From NCBI RefSeq assembly GCF_030252425.1, contig NZ_CP126994.1, forward strand, positions 372,001 through 436,000: 64,000 bases of DNA. Direction: 5' to 3'. This DNA comes from Acidisoma sp. PAMC 29798. Lineage in GTDB: Bacteria > Pseudomonadota > Alphaproteobacteria > Acetobacterales > Acetobacteraceae. The translations under genes and the position numbers were made by a program. Below the pieces are notes generated by a model. That model was not told the origin of the DNA. It saw nothing but the letters and a program-made list of their open reading frames with translations, and did not search any database. Of the stretch, positions 51,914 to 62,784 are shown one piece after another (positions within the stretch are counted from its first letter, which is position 1; each line of letters opens with the position of its first letter).

Positions 51914-52870
51914 TTCAGATCCCTCCCGTGATCTTAATAGGTAATCTATTTTCTATAGAATTAGCTTGCACATACTGCCCTCTCGAAGCGAGCGAGGGAG
52001 AAGCATCGTCTGCAAACTTCTATTGAAGCAATATTGTCGAGTGGACTGCCCGTTCTTCTTGTTGAGCCATCATACAAGCGCCTGCACGAACGTCAATGAC
52101 TATGATCATATGACCAGACGTCCGTGTCCGCTCTTGCTTCGGGTCAAACGGCAGCTTCGATGCCTTTTATGTCGGCCTGGAGTGTTAGACTTGACTGGTG
52201 GGGAGGTTCGTCCGGAATACGAGCCTGACGCGGCATCCGCGATTTCGGAGCGGCGCCCGGTTCAGCTGCCACCAGATATAATCAGATAAATTTTGGCATT
52301 GGCGGAACCGAACCTGCTCAACCTTGAGGGATGCTCGCTTGATCCGAAATGGAACTTGAGCGCCTCGTCGATAGGACTTGGGAAGTCGTCGTCACACGTC
52401 CTGAAACAAAAGCAACCGATTTCCGGTGCCTCCTCCTCCGCCCCAACTGTCAAAATCTCCAGATAAGGACGAATGCTTCGCTCGACAAAGCCATCATGGG
52501 CTCGTGCTATTCTCACTTCAGCCCGCGCGCGACCATCTCAATACGGCGTGTGCGGACTCAGAATGAGTAACGAAGATGAAGATGCGACCAAGGACAGGAA
52601 GAGTACTGGTCGGCTAGATGCGCGTTCCACATCCGAGCAGAACCTGGCGCAATAGGTTATGCGCGTTTTGGCGGAGAGAGTGTCTGTAGAAATAGCGTTT
52701 CGGGGCATTTCCTGCCGGTTCGAACTCTCAAGACTCTATCGGCAATCTCGGCATACCCGTCCCCCAGAATTCCCCTTCAATTCGGTCTAATCCGGCTTGT
52801 CTAATGGGACTGAAAATGGGACCATACAGTTCGACGGAGAGATTCGTTTGCTTGGAGTGGTCTCTGAACA
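51914..52870. other. Intergenic region between sugar operon and integrase
   Basis: 957 bases with no gene I can defend. Close to the ATPase gene there is a 10-base palindrome TTCTATAGAA (51951-51960), a plausible operator or promoter element. Short open frames occur on both strands (for example an ATG at 52564 giving 30 codons, SNEDEDATKDRKSTG), without family match. The right part probably holds the attachment site of the integrative element that begins with the integrase at 52871. Confidence 0.45.
52669..52683. other. Possible attachment-site remnant resembling a tRNA-Ser 3' end
   Basis: TGGCGGAGAGAGTG read on the opposite strand is CACTCTCTCCGCCA, the acceptor-stem and CCA end of a serine tRNA. 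The T-arm does not continue, so this is not a complete tRNA. Many tyrosine integrases use tRNA 3' ends as attachment sites and the integrase starts 187 bases away. Tentative. Confidence 0.25.
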
Positions 52871-54082
52871 ATGGCCGGTAAGTTGACTGTTTTGGGGCTC
52901 AAGGCATTGGTCAAGCCCGGTCGCTACGTCGATGGCGACGGCCTGCATCTCCATGTCAGAGGTCCCGAACGCCGGGCCTGGGTGTTCCGCTACACCCGCC
53001 AAGGCAAGACAAAGGATATGGGTCTTGGGTCTTACCCAGAGGTGTCGCTTTCCAGCGCGCGAGGCGCGGCCGCAGACGCCAATGCAGTGTTACGGGCCAA
53101 GGCCGATCCGCTCCAAGCCCGGCAGGCGACCGCCACCCCTCTGAGCTCTCGGACCTTTCGCGAAGCCGCGACCGACTATCTCGCCGCACATAGCCCGAGC
53201 TGGCGAAACCCGAAGCACGTGGCGCAGTGGGAGGCAACCCTGAAGGCTCACGCTTACCCCGCGATCGGCGACTTTCTTGTCTCCAATATCGACGTGGACG
53301 CGGTGCTGAATGTGCTCAAGCCGATCTGGGCGAAGACACCAGAGACTGCCTCGCGCCTTCGCGGGCGCATCGAGGCGATCCTGGATGCTGCCAAGGGGAG
53401 GGGGTGGCGGCACGGTGAGAACCCGGCCCGGTGGAAAGGCAACCTATCGGGCCTCCTGCCGCCGAAGGGGCGGATGGCCCGCGTCGAGCACCAGCCATCG
53501 CTACCGTGGGAGCAGATGCCGGCCTTCATGCAGGCGCTCCGGGCCCAGGCGGGAACGGGCGCCGCCGCGCTGGAACTGGCTATCCTTACTGCGGCCCGCA
53601 CCGGCGAGGTCAGGGGAATGCGCTGGCAGGAGATCGATCTAGAGGAGGGCATCTGGCTCGTGCCGGCCGAGCGGATGAAGGCGGGCCGTATGCACCGTGT
53701 TCCTTTGGTGGGCCGCTCGTTGGAAATCCTCCAAAGACTCGCGCCGACGATGCGGGAGCGGGACAGCCTCGTCTTCCCCGGTAGTAAAGGTGTAGTGCCG
53801 CTGTCGGATATGGCCTTGTCGATGGTGGTCAGGCGCATGAATGGCGAGACGAAGCCGCCCACCTGGCGTGACATCAGCGGCCGGGCGGTGGTGCCCCACG
53901 GCTTTCGCTCCAGCTTCCGGGTCTGGGCCGGTGAGATGACCGCATATCCGCGGGAAGTTGTGGAGGCGTCGCTCGCCCACACCCTCAAAGACAAGACGGA
54001 GGCCGCGTACGCCCGAACCGACCTCATGGAGCGGCGCCGGCCGCTAATGAAGGAATGGGGCGAGTGGTGCGGGAGAGCGTAG
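52871..54082 (+). CDS. Tyrosine recombinase/integrase (DUF4102 type)
   Basis: 403 residues. The N-terminal DUF4102 arm domain reads GRYVDGDGLHLHVRGPERRA, then GLGSYPEVSLSSAR. The catalytic domain shows the first arginine in TAARTGEVRGM, a lysine in AERMKAGRMHRVPL, the HxxR box in HGFRSSFRVWAGE, a histidine in LAHTLKDKTE and the nucleophile tyrosine in AYARTDLMERRR. This is the P4/CTnscr94-type integrase of genomic islands and satellites. It marks the left boundary of the integrative element. Directly after its stop lie pieces of other integrase C-termini. Confidence 0.95.
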   Translation: MAGKLTVLGLKALVKPGRYVDGDGLHLHVRGPERRAWVFRYTRQGKTKDMGLGSYPEVSLSSARGAAADANAVLRAKADPLQARQATATPLSSRTFREAATDYLAAHSPSWRNPKHVAQWEATLKAHAYPAIGDFLVSNIDVDAVLNVLKPIWAKTPETASRLRGRIEAILDAAKGRGWRHGENPARWKGNLSGLLPPKGRMARVEHQPSLPWEQMPAFMQALRAQAGTGAAALELAILTAARTGEVRGMRWQEIDLEEGIWLVPAERMKAGRMHRVPLVGRSLEILQRLAPTMRERDSLVFPGSKGVVPLSDMALSMVVRRMNGETKPPTWRDISGRAVVPHGFRSSFRVWAGEMTAYPREVVEASLAHTLKDKTEAAYARTDLMERRRPLMKEWGEWCGRA

Positions 54083-54320: not shown

Positions 54321-55835
54321 TCAATCCGCAACCTCATCGTTAGGGGAAATGAGATCTTCCTCGCTGTCCTTCTCAGATATCTCATCCTCTTCCGAAGAGA
54401 CCGGTCCCGAAAACAGCCCAATGTCTTTGGTTATGTTCCGACCGACTGTGTAACAATAAACAGCGCTAGGAGATAATTTGACCTGATGTCCTTCGACCGT
54501 GATGGTCCCCGAGAGGGTCTTAGTCGTGAAAAATGCGGACTTAATACTCGGGTGTTTTCTCAACAGAGCTGCGATCCCACGGGTCTCCTCTGAAAATTTG
54601 GTTTTGATCCGATCCGACCACTTAATTTCACCAATCCAGCCAGGCCGTTGATTTGCACCCTCGAGCGAAACAATATCTACCTCGCCCTCATTTCTCCATC
54701 TTGCGTAACGAAGATTCTTGAAGTGAAAAGAATGCTGCCACTGGGAAAAAATTGCGGACTCGGTGAGGTGCCCGATTCTTTCGGAGTCAGTGCTTTCTAC
54801 GGGGGCGAACAAAGCGGCCCGCATTGAGGGGTTGTTCAGGTAAATCTTGAAATTTCGTTCCCTCTTCATCGTCCGACAATTGTCATCGACTGTAGTGAGC
54901 TTGATGATTAGAAACGCGCTCTCAAGGTATTCAATGTATTTTTTAATGGTCGGCTTGGCTAGGCCGGACTCTTGCGAAATGTTTTCAAGACTCGCCTCAC
55001 TGCCTGCATTGTAAGCGAGAAATGAAAATAGCCGATTTAACTCCTGTATCTCATCGATCCCGTACAGGCTTGGAAGGTCTTTGAGGAGAACCTTGTCAAT
55101 GATGTCATTCTTTATGAATTGCTCGGGATCAGCACGAATTTGATCGTTTAGAACCGCCTCGGGATAGCCTCCAAAATTGAGGTAGTCGATAAACCGCAAG
55201 TTTAGTTTTTCAAGGTCCGTCGCACGATATTCATTTTTTTCATTTTCGATGACAAGATGATCCTCATTTAAGAATAGTAGGAACTCATAGAAGGTAAGTG
55301 GAGGAAGCATAAAGTCAGAGAACCGACCCGCCCCTGATTCGCGACTCTTAAGCCTCAGGGCCGCAGCAGCTGATCCTGATGCAATGAATTTCGTTTGCGG
55401 GTTGCTGTCGACCAAATCTTTGAGATGTACTTCCCAATCGCGGAGATATTGTATTTCATCAAAGATAATAAGCTTTTGCTCACTAGCTTCGGACGTCGGC
55501 ATAAACTCCAGAAACTTTTCAAGAAGAATGCCTGAATATATTGGGGTATCGATGCTTACGTACATGACGCACGATGGTGAAATCCCCCGATTTATGCTCT
55601 CTTGGACGAGTTGCTTGATCATGACAGTCTTGCCTACCCGCCGCGGCCCCAACAGGACTGTGGCACGCCGCACGCCGTAATTCAGCGCCAGCGATAGGAA
55701 TGGCTCAAAATATACTCGTCGAGGGAAAGCATCTTCCGGAAGTTTTTTCCCGGGGGACGTCCACCAAGGATTATCCCGCTCTATCCTTCGCTGTATGTCG
55801 CTAGGTGCAATTGGGCGCATTACGTCACCTGACAA
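54321..55835 (-). CDS. AAA+ ATPase with DUF4143 domain
   Basis: 504 residues. The ATPase domain has Walker A LLGPRRVGKTVMIKQL, Walker B LIIFDEIQYLRDWE and sensor FIASGSAAAALRLKSRESGA. A winged-helix-like segment (ENISQESGLAKPTIKKYIEY) leads into the DUF4143 nuclease-like domain, including VDIVSLEG-type DIV and IGEIKWSDR, resembling a D...ExK restriction-nuclease core. The C-terminal 40 residues are acidic (SSEEDEISEKDSEEDL). The gene is visibly AT-richer than its neighbours and is opposite in strand to the island genes, so it is probably recently acquired cargo. Function is unknown; defence is possible. ATG at 55820 is an alternative start. Confidence 0.88.
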   Translation of the reverse strand: MSGDVMRPIAPSDIQRRIERDNPWWTSPGKKLPEDAFPRRVYFEPFLSLALNYGVRRATVLLGPRRVGKTVMIKQLVQESINRGISPSCVMYVSIDTPIYSGILLEKFLEFMPTSEASEQKLIIFDEIQYLRDWEVHLKDLVDSNPQTKFIASGSAAAALRLKSRESGAGRFSDFMLPPLTFYEFLLFLNEDHLVIENEKNEYRATDLEKLNLRFIDYLNFGGYPEAVLNDQIRADPEQFIKNDIIDKVLLKDLPSLYGIDEIQELNRLFSFLAYNAGSEASLENISQESGLAKPTIKKYIEYLESAFLIIKLTTVDDNCRTMKRERNFKIYLNNPSMRAALFAPVESTDSERIGHLTESAIFSQWQHSFHFKNLRYARWRNEGEVDIVSLEGANQRPGWIGEIKWSDRIKTKFSEETRGIAALLRKHPSIKSAFFTTKTLSGTITVEGHQVKLSPSAVYCYTVGRNITKDIGLFSGPVSSEEDEISEKDSEEDLISPNDEVAD

Positions 55836-56313: not shown

Positions 56314-56577
56314 CTAATCGACTTTCTTCAACCTCACCCCCGGCCCCTCGCCATTTTCCTCCACGAAGATGACGCCGGCCGCCTCCAGCGCGGCCCGGAT
56401 GGCGGAGAGGGTGCGCTTCTGGGCAGTTCCCTGCTCTAGCTCAAATCGGGCGAGTGTACGCTTAGGGACCTCGCTCTTTTCCACCAGCCGATCCTGAGAC
56501 CAGCCAAGTAGACCCCGAGCCGCTCGAACCTGTGCGGGAGAGATGGCAATTTCAATGCCGTTTCCACTTGCATTCAT
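56314..56577 (-). CDS. XRE-family helix-turn-helix regulator
   Basis: 87 residues from the ATG at 56577. A single HTH domain (AQVRAARGLLGWSQDRLVEK, then SEVPKRTLARFELEQGT) is followed by a short tail AAGVIFVEENGEGPGVRLKK typical of small alphaproteobacterial prophage repressors. Genes of the phage-like module are divergent from it, with the dyad GTTCC-ACAA-GGAAC at 56605-56618 in between. It is the likely repressor of the element. Confidence 0.9.
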   Translation of the reverse strand: MNASGNGIEIAISPAQVRAARGLLGWSQDRLVEKSEVPKRTLARFELEQGTAQKRTLSAIRAALEAAGVIFVEENGEGPGVRLKKVD

Positions 56578-56604
56578 GGCGATGATCATGGCACTTCTAA
56601 TGCC

Positions 56605-56618
56605 GTTCCACAAGGAAC
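56605..56618. promoter_or_regulatory. Operator candidate for the island XRE repressor
   Basis: GTTCC-ACAA-GGAAC, perfect 5-base arms with a 4-base spacer, lies 28 bases upstream of the XRE start in the divergent gap with the first rightward phage-like gene (56688). Confidence 0.5.
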
Positions 56619-57992: not shown

Positions 57993-58161
57993 TCGGCTGC
58001 AGCAGCGGAATCTCGACGCTGCAGTTGCTTTGGCTAAGCAAGCCGCCCGGCGGCGTGGTCCTCTGGTGGATCACTTCGCGGAACTCGGTCGCCGGTTCGG
58101 CTCGGACATCGACCAGCACGAGAAGCCGAACCTGCGCGTCGTCAAAGGGGAGGGCGCATGA
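57877..58161 (+). CDS. Hypothetical small protein
   Basis: 94 residues from the ATG at 57877. A Pro-rich opening (TKKAPPPIVPPQPPQTEKEK) is followed by a helical core (LELREIMRSMADRLQQRNLD, AAVALAKQAARRRGPLVDHF). No family recognised. ATGA overlap with the next tiny gene. Confidence 0.65.
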   Translation: MTARTKKAPPPIVPPQPPQTEKEKAASLELREIMRSMADRLQQRNLDAAVALAKQAARRRGPLVDHFAELGRRFGSDIDQHEKPNLRVVKGEGA

Positions 58162-58256
58162 CCCGCCAGTTCGTCATCCCGGTGCGGCTAGGCGAGAAGC
58201 CGAAGCCGAAGCCGAAGCCGAAGCCGAAGCCGAAGCCAAAGCCGGCGGAGGGGTAA
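58158..58256 (+). CDS. Tiny protein with eight Lys-Pro repeats
   Basis: 32 residues: MTRQFVIPVRLGE, then eight consecutive Lys-Pro pairs encoded by a hexanucleotide AAGCCG repeat (58197-58244), then AEG and a stop. It starts in the ATGA overlap with the preceding gene. Too short for the gene predictions supplied, but the start is well placed. The Lys-Pro run is basic, extended and could bind nucleic acid or membrane. Confidence 0.55.
   Translation: MTRQFVIPVRLGEKPKPKPKPKPKPKPKPAEG
58197..58244 (+). repeat. Hexanucleotide AAGCCG microsatellite
   Basis: Eight in-phase copies of AAGCCG (one is AAGCCA) inside the tiny Lys-Pro gene. Such a tract is prone to copy-number change that would keep the frame. 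Confidence 0.9.
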
Positions 58257-58332
58257 GACATGGAAAAACACATCTCCTACCGTTCCCTTCCAGGTCCGGT
58301 CATACTCGCCGGATCGAATAAGGGGTGCGTCA

Positions 58333-59087: not shown

Positions 59088-59309
59088 ATGAATCGAGCCT
59101 CTGATTTTGTTGCCGTCGTCGAGGCAATGGTCGTGCCTCTCCCCCAGGCTCCCGCAGTGTTCGGCCTGTCGCGCAGTGCGATTTACCGTGCCGCCGCGGT
59201 TGGCGAGATCACGCTGATGAAGATGGGGCGCAGCACTCTTGTCGATGCAGCAAGCGTCCGCCGCTATCTGGCAAACCTCCCGCGGCTTCACCCGAAGCAG
59301 GCCGCCTAA
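59088..59309 (+). CDS. AlpA-like helix-turn-helix (excisionase-type) protein
   Basis: 73 residues from the ATG at 59088, with AAAGGGA upstream. MVVPLPQAPAVFGLSRSAIY RAA is the HTH of AlpA/MerR-like excisionase proteins, followed by the wing VGEITLMKMGRSTLVDAASV RRYL. In P4-like elements such proteins activate excision or late-gene expression. Its upstream region contains the 62-base dyad, which could be its binding site. A hairpin follows the stop. Confidence 0.88.
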   Translation: MNRASDFVAVVEAMVVPLPQAPAVFGLSRSAIYRAAAVGEITLMKMGRSTLVDAASVRRYLANLPRLHPKQAA

Positions 59310-59802: not shown

Positions 59803-60044
59803 GCGACGCCCCGGAGATGGCCGAGTTCGGTAAAGCCCTGGTCGAGAAAACCGCGGACGAGTTGAAGCGCTGGCTGGCCCAAACGGGAGGCATGCCCGAC
59901 GCCGGCGTGTCATCGCTGATGCTGGTCATCCACTACACGATGGAGATCACCGCAGAACGTCTCGGGCCAGCCGGCGTCGCCTTCATGCTCGAAAGCGCCG
60001 GCATGTTTGCCGCTCAGGCTTTGACAGGTGAGGTGGCGGGGTGA
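59799..60044 (+). CDS. Small island protein
   Basis: 81 residues (MSDAPEMAEFGKALVEKTAD, ELKRWLAQTGGMPDAGVSSL, closing SAGMFAAQALTGEVAG). It overlaps the replication gene by four bases (GTGA) and is probably its translational partner. No family recognised. Confidence 0.6.
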   Translation: MSDAPEMAEFGKALVEKTADELKRWLAQTGGMPDAGVSSLMLVIHYTMEITAERLGPAGVAFMLESAGMFAAQALTGEVAG

Positions 60045-62500
60045 GCGCCTACGCCCAACCTGCTTCAGAGTTCGTGCGCGCCATGGGGCCGGTCGCTCGT
60101 GAACTGCTTGGCGATCCTACCTTCGAAACAAAGCACGAGTTACGATTCCGGCAGCGTGGCAGCTTGGCAGTGGATTTGCTGAAGGGAGTTTGGCACGACC
60201 ATGAGGCGAACGTCGGCGGTGGTGTCGTCGATTTCGTCATGGTCGAGACAAGGACAGACAAGGCGGGTGCCGTGGCGTGGCTGCGCGAACGCAAGCACAT
60301 CGAACCCGTCGCAACGCGCAGCGGTTCGTTTAACATCATGTCGACCTATGACTATACTGACGCTGACGGCGTTCTGCTTTACCAAGTCTGCCGCATGGAG
60401 CCTAAAGACTTCAGGCAGCGGCGCCCGGATCCTGAGAAGCCTGGCTCGTGGCTGTGGAACACGGGTGGCACCAAACGTGTCCTCTATCGCTTGCCCGAAG
60501 TCATTGCGGCGGTGAAGGAAGGGCGCCCCGTATTCATCTGCGAAGGTGAGAAGGCAGCCGACGCGTTATGTGGCCTCGGCGTCACCGCGACGTGTTCGCC
60601 AGGTGGTGCGAATAAGTGGCGGCGCGAGTTCGCCGATCACTTCTCATCTGCGACGGTGGTGGTTCTTCCCGACAATGACGAGCCCGGCCGCCTTCACCGC
60701 GACATGGTGGTTAGAGGCCTATCGCGTTGGGCTACGATCGCAACGATCACGCTGCCCGGCCTGCCGCCCAAAGGTGACGCCTATGATTGGATAGCAGCAG
60801 GCGGCACTAAGGCTGACTTGAAGGCGTTGGTGGCTAAAGTCTTCGAGGAAGTCTTTGACGAAGAAGATCTGGCCCTGTTCACCGACGAGGGCTCTAGTGG
60901 GATCGGGGTGGAGCATATCGATTGTGGCGCCGGGCGCCACCCTTCGCCGGAACCAACCACGAAGCCGACGATCCTCGTACGCGCCGGAGAGCTGGACACG
61001 CTGGCGACGAAGGGCGAGGCGGCCCTCTGCTCGTCCGACCTTCCTATCTATCAGCGCGGTGATGTCCTGGTGCGGCCGATCAGCAAGGAGGTCAGCGCTT
61101 CACGGGGCCGGACAACAGTGGCCGCAGGTCTGACGGAGTTGAGCACACATGCCGTCCTCGACCTTCTGAGCCAATCCGCACACTGGGTCCGGTTCGATAA
61201 GCGCGCCAAAGCCGAGATTGCGTGCGATCCACCCGCTGCCGTGCCCTCCATCATCCTGAGCAGGAAGGGGCAATGGAAGCTGCCGCTGGTTGCCGGCGTC
61301 ATCACCACACCGACGCTCCGGCCGGATGGATCGCTGCTGTTCGAGCCCGGATATGACGCTGCAACCCGTTTATTCCATGTTGCTGATCCCAGCCTGAAAC
61401 TCGGGGCGATGCCGGAGAAGCCGTCGCGAAGCCAGGCCGAGGAAGCGCTGGGCAAGCTTAAGGCGCTGCTGACGGGGTTCCCGTTCGTAACCGAGATAGA
61501 CCGGGCCGTCGCTCTGTCTGGCCTCATCACCCCCGTCGTGCGCGGCGCCCTGTCGGTCGTGCCGCTTCACGCATTCAAGGCCAGCACCGCCGGCAGCGGT
61601 AAAAGCTTCCTTGTCGACATCATCAGCGCCATCGCAACTGGGAGACCGTGCCCAGTGGTCGCCGCTGGTCAGACCGACGAGGAGACCGAGAAGCGCCTCG
61701 TCGGGTTGCTCATTGCGGGCTTCCCCATCGTGTCGGTGGACAACGTCAACGGTGAGCTGGGCGGCGACCTTCTTTGCCAGCTCATCGAACGACCGTTGAT
61801 CAGGGTGCGTCCCCTCGGCCGGAGCGAGATCATGGAACTGGAAAGCCGGGCGACCGTCTTCGCCACAGGCAACGGCCTCCGGGTGCGCGGCGATATGGTT
61901 CGCCGGTCACTCATCTCGTCGCTTGACGCCCAGATGGAGCGGCCGGAATTGCGAAAATTCGACACCGATCCAGTCAATGACGTGCTGAGCGACCGTGGCA
62001 AGTATGTCGCCGCCTGCTTGACCATCGTGCGCGCTTACGCCGCTGCCAGTCGTCCGCACCATCTCCCTGCACTCGCGTCGTTTGAGGATTGGTCGGCTTC
62101 CGTTCGCTCGGCGCTTGTCTGGCTAGGCTGCCAAGACCCGGTCACATCAATGGAATCTGCCCGCGAAGATGATCCCGACCTCGCCGAGCTGCGGGAAGTG
62201 CTCGCGCTGTGGAAGACGCATCTAGGCTCCGGCAGCGGCTACGCTTTCACGGCCAGGGACGCGGCTGAAGCGGCCTGCAAGAGGGAAGCAACCGTGATGG
62301 GTGAGCCGCCCGACTTCGCCTGCCCTGAGTTCCGCGACGTGCTTCTGCGGATCGCTGGCGAGCGAGGAAACGTCAACACGAGGAAACTCGGAACCTGGCT
62401 GATGGATCATGCGGGCCGGATTATCGGCGGGCTTCGGATGATCAAGGCCGGGACCGCAAACGGTGGCGTGTTGAGGTGGAACGTGGAGGTCGTGAAGTGA
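60041..62500 (+). CDS. TOPRIM-containing primase-helicase-like replication protein
   Basis: 819 residues from a GTG at 60041. The N-terminal region has a primase-like start (FRQRGSLAVDLLKGVWHDHE) without zinc-binding cysteines. A TOPRIM-type domain follows (FICEGEKAADAL, then VVLPDNDEPG). The C-terminal half is a DUF927-like helicase with Walker A ASTAGSGKSFLVD near residue 520, ATGNGLRVRGD and other ATPase elements. This architecture is shared with replication proteins of P4-like satellites and small integrative elements. It overlaps the genes before and after, and the iteron cluster at 62533-62662 lies within 35-160 bases of its end. Confidence 0.9.
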   Translation: MSAYAQPASEFVRAMGPVARELLGDPTFETKHELRFRQRGSLAVDLLKGVWHDHEANVGGGVVDFVMVETRTDKAGAVAWLRERKHIEPVATRSGSFNIMSTYDYTDADGVLLYQVCRMEPKDFRQRRPDPEKPGSWLWNTGGTKRVLYRLPEVIAAVKEGRPVFICEGEKAADALCGLGVTATCSPGGANKWRREFADHFSSATVVVLPDNDEPGRLHRDMVVRGLSRWATIATITLPGLPPKGDAYDWIAAGGTKADLKALVAKVFEEVFDEEDLALFTDEGSSGIGVEHIDCGAGRHPSPEPTTKPTILVRAGELDTLATKGEAALCSSDLPIYQRGDVLVRPISKEVSASRGRTTVAAGLTELSTHAVLDLLSQSAHWVRFDKRAKAEIACDPPAAVPSIILSRKGQWKLPLVAGVITTPTLRPDGSLLFEPGYDAATRLFHVADPSLKLGAMPEKPSRSQAEEALGKLKALLTGFPFVTEIDRAVALSGLITPVVRGALSVVPLHAFKASTAGSGKSFLVDIISAIATGRPCPVVAAGQTDEETEKRLVGLLIAGFPIVSVDNVNGELGGDLLCQLIERPLIRVRPLGRSEIMELESRATVFATGNGLRVRGDMVRRSLISSLDAQMERPELRKFDTDPVNDVLSDRGKYVAACLTIVRAYAAASRPHHLPALASFEDWSASVRSALVWLGCQDPVTSMESAREDDPDLAELREVLALWKTHLGSGSGYAFTARDAAEAACKREATVMGEPPDFACPEFRDVLLRIAGERGNVNTRKLGTWLMDHAGRIIGGLRMIKAGTANGGVLRWNVEVVK

Positions 62501-62784
62501 GACGTTCAACCGACCAACCGAGTGTCATGTCTAAAGGTCTTAAAGGTTGTAAAGGTCAGTTCCCAACCCCCACTCCATCTTCGCAATCCATTTTCAATGG
62601 TAAACCCCCTGCTAAATCTGAGGGTGCGGCTGAGACTGACCTTTACAACCTTTACAACCTTTCAAACGACGAAGCCGACGAACGCCTCGCCATCCAGACC
62701 GAAGCCCAGAACGCGGTGCCCCAGAAGATCGATCAGGCGTTGATGATCGCGGGACTGATCGCTTGCGCACGGTGGCGCCCATGA
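62497..62784 (+). CDS. Small protein encoded across the putative origin
   Basis: 95 residues from a GTG at 62497 (GTGA overlap with the replication gene). It contains MSKGLKGCKGQ and DLYNLYNLSNDEADE, which are the translations of the two iteron clusters, and a helical tail. Genes of this kind often occur after primase genes in small phage-related elements simply because the origin is there, so it may not encode a functional protein. The tail (RLAIQTEAQNAVPQKIDQAL) looks genuine. Confidence 0.5.
   Translation: MRRSTDQPSVMSKGLKGCKGQFPTPTPSSQSIFNGKPPAKSEGAAETDLYNLYNLSNDEADERLAIQTEAQNAVPQKIDQALMIAGLIACARWRP
62533..62662. other. Putative replication origin: inverted iteron clusters
   Basis: Three AAAGGT units with a 9-base period (62533-62538, 62542-62547, 62551-62556) face three ACCTTT units, also with a 9-base period (62639-62644, 62648-62653, 62657-62662). 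The inner 18 bases of each cluster (62542-62559 and 62636-62653) are perfect inverted copies. The 82-base interval has a short CCATT/AATGG hairpin. Two opposed iteron sets directly after a primase-helicase gene match the plan of satellite and small-element origins. Confidence 0.7.

Follow-up and report, generated by a model that had tools for sequence, protein, structure and literature searches.

Mirrored repeat arrays past a primase-helicase gene: a probable replication origin of a prophage- or satellite-like element and its recurrence in relatives

The window analysed here is a stretch of 64,000 nucleotides from Acidisoma sp. PAMC 29798. A 14-bp repeat pairs position 52669 with window-equivalent position 71141, so that the element carrying the features described below is about 18.5 kb long and the window ends inside it. 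These features, in order of position, are the following.

52669..52682, no strand: attL, a 14-bp copy of the 3' end of tRNA-Ser(gga), recognised as a 14-bp direct repeat.
52871..54082, + strand: tyrosine integrase at the left end of the element (Pfam Phage_integrase, E 2e-16; Arm-DNA-bind_3; Phage_int_M).
59088..59309, + strand: small helix-turn-helix protein, possibly an AlpA/MerR-like regulator, from a weak match (PF12728 HTH_17, E 0.0056, under the curated cut-off).
60041..62500, + strand: TOPRIM primase fused to a D5/SF3-like helicase, 819 aa, the presumed initiator (PHROG, AlphaFold, Foldseek).
62252..62491, + strand: C-terminal domain of this protein (codons 738-817), the presumed reader of the repeats (models; co-change with the repeats).
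62527..62784, + strand: open frame across both arms, a putative gene at most, and a portion of the frame 62476..62784.
62533..62560, + strand: left arm, three AAAGGT units at 9-bp steps (direct positions, complementarity, score 44/48).
62561..62634, no strand: central spacer, the candidate melting region (GC 0.527).
62635..62662, - strand: right arm, three ACCTTT units (AAAGGT on the other strand) at 9-bp steps (positions, complementarity, score).
71141-71154, window-equivalent, beyond the window: attR, which matches attL and is the 3' end of the tRNA-Ser(gga) gene.

The element looks like a reduced prophage or satellite. Past the repeats lies a terminase-small-like gene, from a weak match (phrog_57, E 0.0064), and head decoration and tape-measure/tail-lysozyme genes are found at window-equivalent positions 66042-68478 (L314:42-2478). 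Large terminase, portal and major capsid were not named among the ten downstream proteins scanned, and the element may be a remnant or may rely on a helper phage. Its phage matches are to Caulobacter, Brevundimonas, Ruegeria and Rhodobacter, with others including Arthrobacter and Streptomyces. On the strand opposite to the integrase and the primase, an AAA_14/DUF4143 ATPase gene located in DNA of lower GC, 0.48-0.53 (54321-55835, -), is probably cargo, and a small HTH_3-like protein (56314-56613, -; E 0.00055, marginally below the cut-off), also opposite to the primase operon, is a candidate repressor of the element. Near this operon, the region 58142-58273 is a simple repeat whose overlapping frames read EAEAEAEA and FGFGFGFG.

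The presumed initiator matches phrog_239 (DNA primase/helicase) at residues 99-258 and phrog_29234 (function unknown) at residues 302-814; no family of Pfam or NCBIfam covers the helicase part at the thresholds applied. The AlphaFold model of the protein, built with 56 aligned sequences, has a mean pLDDT of 91.6. Compared with the PDB by Foldseek, it retrieves D5-type hexameric helicases (best E 5.7e-8), the SaPI5 primase-helicase (7.8e-7), PriRep1 (3.1e-6) and the Aquifex TOPRIM primase. The three matches with E values given have a probability of 1.00, but their TM by query length is about 0.2-0.3 and their rmsd near 10, which indicates a partial fold match despite the significant scores. The helicase fold is thus predicted to resemble that of self-loading initiators. 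The C-terminal domain has predicted helices at 738-745, 762-772 and 780-789, followed by strands at 798-805 and 811-817, and reaches a pLDDT of 89.3 when modelled alone (100 residues). By this order of elements, the last 80 residues are predicted to be winged-helix-like; the label draws solely on that order because the isolated domain had no Foldseek match at E 0.001 or below.

The repeats themselves start 33 nt past the stop codon of this gene. AAAGGT occurs at 62533, 62542 and 62551 on the + strand and faces ACCTTT at 62639, 62648 and 62657, both sets at exact 9-bp steps. The two arms are 28 nt each, 93% complementary and separated by 74 nt, and the whole inverted arrangement spans 130 bp. 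The first-pass annotation had described these facing triplets of 9-base period, and the positions bear it out; the perfect 18-base inverted copies that it reported are slightly longer, since pairing between the arms is perfect over the inner 20 nt (62541-62560). The frame list and the profile matches agree with its placement of the repeats after a TOPRIM/helicase gene, and Pfam confirms the integrase that it had leading the element. The small coding frame that it drew over the repeats does exist, but nothing was found that marks it as a gene, and the region 62521-62781 had no Pfam or PHROG match. The pattern AAAGGTNNNAAAGGTNNNAAAGGT has two copies in the window, both at this locus, as opposed to 0 of 100 dinucleotide shuffles, and its 23-base form, with at most one mismatch, has no further copy in the genome (4.99 Mb, 5 contigs). 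To compare loci we used a mirrored-array score computed over six copies, with a maximum of 48. The locus scores 44, and every other place in 86 kb (the window and the next 22 kb) scores at most 39. This last value is that of a GC-rich stretch around 79.3 kb, so a score of 39 is possible away from such a locus. The spacer between the arms has a GC content of 0.527, lower than that of the gene (0.626) and of the kilobase that follows (0.595); it is AT-rich in relative, not in absolute, terms.

We then considered whether related proteins are followed by similar arrays. Relative loci came from a genome search and from two scans of viral contigs (160 loci from the two scans); the protein is present in 26 of the 100 genomes searched, counting the window's own. 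With that one exception, no AAAGGT triplets were found in the loci fetched from the genome search, and a letter scan of the viral collection gave no opposed AAAGGT arrays within 400 bp among the 120 matches listed. Instead, several of the genome-search loci have facing arrays of other units past the stop codon, e.g., TTAAGTGGG in L127, TGACACCAA in L128, GGTGACGCA in L130 and TGCGGGACT in L136. The letters of the unit differ between relatives, which is why literal searches for AAAGGT yielded nothing comparable. Hence, the expectation in the first-pass annotation that relatives would have the same repeats at the same position stands in many of them for architecture and position, but not for the letters. 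In one of these loci (L127:3172-3530), the opposed array occurs twice in tandem, about 220 bp apart.

A simple 6-mer test detected opposed clusters in 76 of 159 loci; among shuffles and control windows, the counts were 10 of 795 and 36 of 788. The mirrored-array score was at least 39 in 69 of the 161 loci that have room past the stop (15 from the genome search and 73 from each viral scan), a value that none of 161 shuffles and none of 322 control windows inside the gene attained. By source, these were 54/73 in the second viral scan, 7/73 in the first, which consists mostly of TOPRIM-only matches, and 8/15 among the genome-search loci. The set sharing the window's helicase type started from 85 loci, of which 79 met the requirements of a nearby stop and of a protein at least 400 aa long. 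Removal of identical C-termini left 72 (the near-identical L233 and L234 were both kept), and 71 were scored, all but L264. An array 3' of the gene with a score of at least 39 was found in 53 of these 71, the window included. The other 18 comprise ten loci at 37 or 38 and eight below 37, including L124 (33) and L125 (32). Loci of this helicase type that were fetched later had the array in 6 of 6 cases, and TOPRIM-only loci in 0 of 11, a set in which several are duplicates or belong to the first viral scan (two more had no room past the stop). In L126 and L127, the array lies farther than usual from the stop, at +86 and +112, and the N-terminal part of the protein has a weak match to Prim-Pol instead of TOPRIM (Pfam E 0.0011 and 0.011, below the cut-off). 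Among distant helicase relatives, L132-L134, L137 and L150 score under the threshold, whereas L135 and L136, which are no less distant, score at or above it. The VapE-like domain of L130 (E 2e-77) and its score of 47 indicate that proteins of the VapE type can have an array. In the fetched sample, the array thus tracks certain helicase types, not the TOPRIM primase.

Removing identical arms reduced the 69 array loci to 65. In these, the left arm starts at a median of +5 nt past the stop codon (59/65 within -15 to +40), and the gap between the arms has a median of 65 nt (54/65 at 55-90 nt), with a range of 52-170 nt in which 170 is the upper bound of the search. Both steps are of nine bases in 34 arrays, and the remaining 31 mix steps of 8, 9 and 10. 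When the steps are unequal, the mirrored order fits better in 23 of 26 arrays, a count biased by the choice of arrays on their mirrored score; the positions of exact 6-mers, found without the mirrored rule, also give mirrored steps in several loci. The centre has a mean GC content of 0.493, against 0.632 in the gene, and is the lower of the two in 64 of the 65 loci. No fourth unit was found inward of the arms, where 6 of 8 matches are reached in 1/65 left arms and 0/65 right arms.

Many of these loci are on viral contigs. We put 14 of the 80 records of the second viral scan, picked for length or score, through three profile searches; 13 of them have arrays at the threshold and one, L244, is just under it, at 38. 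An HK97-type capsid and a portal were found in L244, L258 and L312, i.e., in two of the 13 array records. Ten records, all within the 13, have a terminase-like match, although one of the ten contains stops and the profile also matches 11 of 14 control genomes. The array-bearing viral records are probably phages. Among cultured phages with distant relatives of the protein, drawn from the 103 and 815 records matching two queries, the array was found in 1 of the 10 examined. This is the isolated Marinobacter phage PS3, with an array score of 43, compared with at most 37 in its shuffles.

If the protein reads the repeats, the two should change together. The near-identical viral contigs L233 and L238 offer one clear natural case, judged by sequence, of what would be initiator-origin co-change. 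Their gene bodies are identical at 1444 of 1458 bases, the centres at 60/64 and the downstream DNA at 74/75, whereas identity falls to 71/105 in the last 36 codons, 19/32 in the left block and 18/32 in the right block. The proteins differ at 14 of 521 residues, and 13 of these 14 are at 784-818, in and past the third helix of the predicted C-terminal domain. Because the right arm sits past the conserved centre, a single continuous exchange does not account for both changes. This case is one pair. Across 76 close pairs, the similarity of the unit correlates with the identity of residues 784-819 (rho 0.60) more than with that of residues 736-783 (0.46) or of the helicase (0.30). Among windows of 30 residues in these pairs, 790-819 has the highest value (0.61), and other windows also correlate with the unit (0.53 at 690-719; 0.44-0.46 at 560-599). 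Within a clade of 21 loci, the partial correlation between unit and C-terminus given the helicase is 0.27 (0 of 2000 permutations) and the reverse one is 0.03 (752 of 2000). Over all 53 array loci, the former is not significant (0.037, with 270 of 1000 permutations at or above it; 0.015, 395/1000, in a second run), perhaps because both the unit and the C-terminus are saturated at that distance. A per-column coevolution test gave no C-terminal excess. The unit sequence thus tracks the protein's C-terminal end both in the pair L233/L238 and in the clade of 21, as expected of an initiator and its origin.

The arms are inverted repeats, and they might extrude as a cruciform, the protein recognising a DNA stem-loop as proposed for pRN1. 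Several patterns fit a cruciform origin: copies that pair across the arms resemble each other slightly more than those that do not (0.838 and 0.805), deviations are mirrored in 30 of 175 cases where 8 are expected, and pairing extends inward of the arms at 295 of 650 positions. In pRN1, a mutation of the stem is tolerated solely once symmetry is restored, as reported in PMC4234260. We nevertheless regard this explanation as unlikely, given that each arm consists of three direct repeats spaced by 8-10-bp steps, a feature for which a hairpin has no need, that 145 of the 175 deviations are not mirrored, and that the sequence of the repeats changes with the end of the protein. The likeness of paired copies is not predicted by independent binding sites alone; the arms may combine binding sites with a mirror symmetry that would come from inverted duplication or from position-specific contacts, and a cruciform may still contribute. 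The arrays could also be an operator, bound by a repressor that controls the primase operon or the gene after it. Paired repeat arrays can serve as operators, and an autorepressing initiator could share its sites with the origin. Yet the site is 3' of the gene, tracks the helicase type, has a GC-poorer centre and, in one pair and one clade, changes with the protein's C-terminal end, which makes a pure operator very improbable.

A structure in the transcript past the primase gene, such as a terminator, attenuator or riboregulator, would fit an inverted repeat directly past a stop codon, which would be transcribed. Selection on RNA pairing should favour G.T over A.C mismatches, but the arms have 58 of the former and 57 of the latter, and the 10 nt inward of them 89 and 91; on this absence of a wobble bias RNA structure was rejected, and we give it a very slim chance. 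The gap of 52-170 nt between the arms also counts against it, being too long for an intrinsic terminator. The repeats might also encode a small repetitive protein: both arms lie within an open frame in the window, steps of nine bases preserve the frame, and some sense frame is open in 48 of the 65 arrays (52% for shuffled letters). In 31/65 arrays, however, one or more steps of 8 or 10 break the frame, and the general coding explanation was rejected on these frame-shifting steps. The letters, hence the peptides, also vary among elements, with no family match at the window locus, and we consider coding a very improbable source of the repeats. The case that the first-pass annotation had named as contrary to an origin, repeats kept merely as codons, is accordingly not what the 31 of 65 arrays with steps other than 9/9 present.

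We conclude that the arrays are very probably the origin of the 18.5-kb prophage- or satellite-like element, read by its own primase-helicase. This reading is based on the repeats, their position, the mirror geometry, the recurrence, the GC-poorer centre, the predicted fold and the co-change; our confidence in it was lowered slightly because the isolated C-terminal domain had no Foldseek match. From these we infer the steps of binding, melting, loading, priming and direction. Copies of the primase-helicase would use their C-terminal domain to bind the three units in each arm. Because the arms point at each other, two helicase assemblies would load head-to-head about the 74-bp centre, which is poorer in GC, melt this stretch and then move apart, while the fused TOPRIM domain would lay primers for the host polymerase. 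By analogy with the systems below, such a mechanism is already known in kind, and what seems new is the helicase family and the occurrence on probable phage records. Among the open-access titles and opening parts of abstracts listed by searches, a body of text with subscription papers mostly outside it, none describes such arrays for the window's helicase type.

The closest comparison is with the phage-inducible chromosomal islands (PICIs), whose origins are described as following rep directly on its 3' side and as having an AT-rich region enclosed by two sets of iterons (PMC6092414); in the SaPIs, the C-terminal domain of Rep is described as reading the iterons (PMC7581432). The locus resembles them in having an array, here a putative origin, directly 3' of the primase-helicase gene, three plus three units flanking a relatively AT-rich centre (GC 0.527 against 0.626 in the gene) and an integrase at the left end of the element (PMC6092414, PMC7581432). 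The SaPI5 primase-helicase is also among the fold matches of the window's protein. Unlike in PICIs and SaPIs, the helicase part of the window's protein is placed in no family by Pfam or NCBIfam at the thresholds applied. The consulted portion of the PICI source leaves the orientation and step of the iterons unstated, whereas here there are three-plus-three units at mirrored 8-10-bp steps. Taken as a whole, the element may or may not be PICI-like: it has an integrase, a tRNA-Ser att site, a size of 18.5 kb and a weak HTH match, but a PICI is expected to have few or no structural genes of its own and this element has head decoration and tape-measure/lysozyme genes. The protein is like D5/SF3-type initiators (P4 alpha, SaPI Rep) in its D5-type AAA+ fold match and TOPRIM-type primase match. 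P4 uses ori and crr sites that are located apart. Its alpha protein is described as having a TOPRIM primase, a helicase and a winged-helix origin-binding domain that binds origin repeats (PMC4234260). With its TOPRIM primase, helicase and predicted winged-helix-like C-terminus, the window's protein is likened to alpha by description, not by direct sequence comparison. There is also a likeness to iteron plasmids, whose Rep protein binds direct repeats and is usually not a self-loading helicase. Their iterons are of about 20 bp (PMC2647930). In SCCmec, short iterons to which the C-terminal domain of Cch2 binds lie past its helicase gene, at a putative origin (PMC7581432), but this binding depends on a 23-bp direct-repeat region, not on inverted repeats (PMC7581432).

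A broader reading can be proposed tentatively, with a joint chance that we place somewhat below even. Mirrored arrays with steps of about 9 bp and a centre of 55-90 bp, directly 3' of the gene, might form one class of origin, used by the self-loading primase-helicases of phages, satellites and perhaps archaeal pRN plasmids. The layout would then not be a hallmark of PICIs, and the pRN1 "stem-loop" would be a pair of opposed iterons. Turnover of the repeats would go together with that of the initiator's last ~36 codons, as lock and key. If this is true, both arms are rewritten to match, giving origin families that do not cross-react on an otherwise identical replicon. The pair L233/L238 is a natural test case for how an initiator and both origin halves would change specificity jointly. 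The findings also argue against inferring descent from a PICI from this layout, and they provide a rule to find origins in unannotated prophages and satellites that needs no conserved sequence, i.e., mirrored arrays with 8-10-bp steps past the stop codon of a primase-helicase gene. We had given this reading an even chance and lowered it because of a chance control on the stems of the pRN plasmids.

In the Sulfolobus plasmid pRN1, the ORF904 primase-helicase has a C-terminal winged helix, and a stem-loop of about 100 bp (21-nt stem, 58-nt loop) 3' of the gene is reported to be needed for replication (PMC4234260, PMC3869888). The locus is like this type of origin in having an inverted repeat, here of 130 bp, 3' of the gene, in a layout that is kept while the units change. 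Unlike in the window, the pRN1 primase is of the AEP type, and there are at most two units per arm, with weak similarity. A 9-bp self-similarity of the left stem has a shuffle chance of 0.08 in pRN1, 0.016 in pHEN7 and 0.05 in pRN2, and is not seen in pDL10 (0.29) and pSSVx (0.44). When any step of 7-11 is allowed, the chances become 0.35, 0.08 and 0.22 for the first three, 0.05 for pDL10 (11-bp step) and 0.95 for pSSVx. The link between the window-type arrays and the archaeal pRN plasmids is thus only suggestive, and the restoration of symmetry in pRN1 favours the stem view. The authors of the pRN1 study describe an origin lacking an iteron structure, and motifs bound by the protein that were not yet identified (PMC4234260, in the portion consulted). 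The idea of opposed iterons bears on their question of which motifs ORF904 binds: the pRN1 arms (L347, 5084-5104 and 5163-5183) have TGTCCA twice each at a 9-bp step, and a 9-bp-step repeat is present in each arm of pHEN7 (L350, 4177-4207 and 4240-4270).
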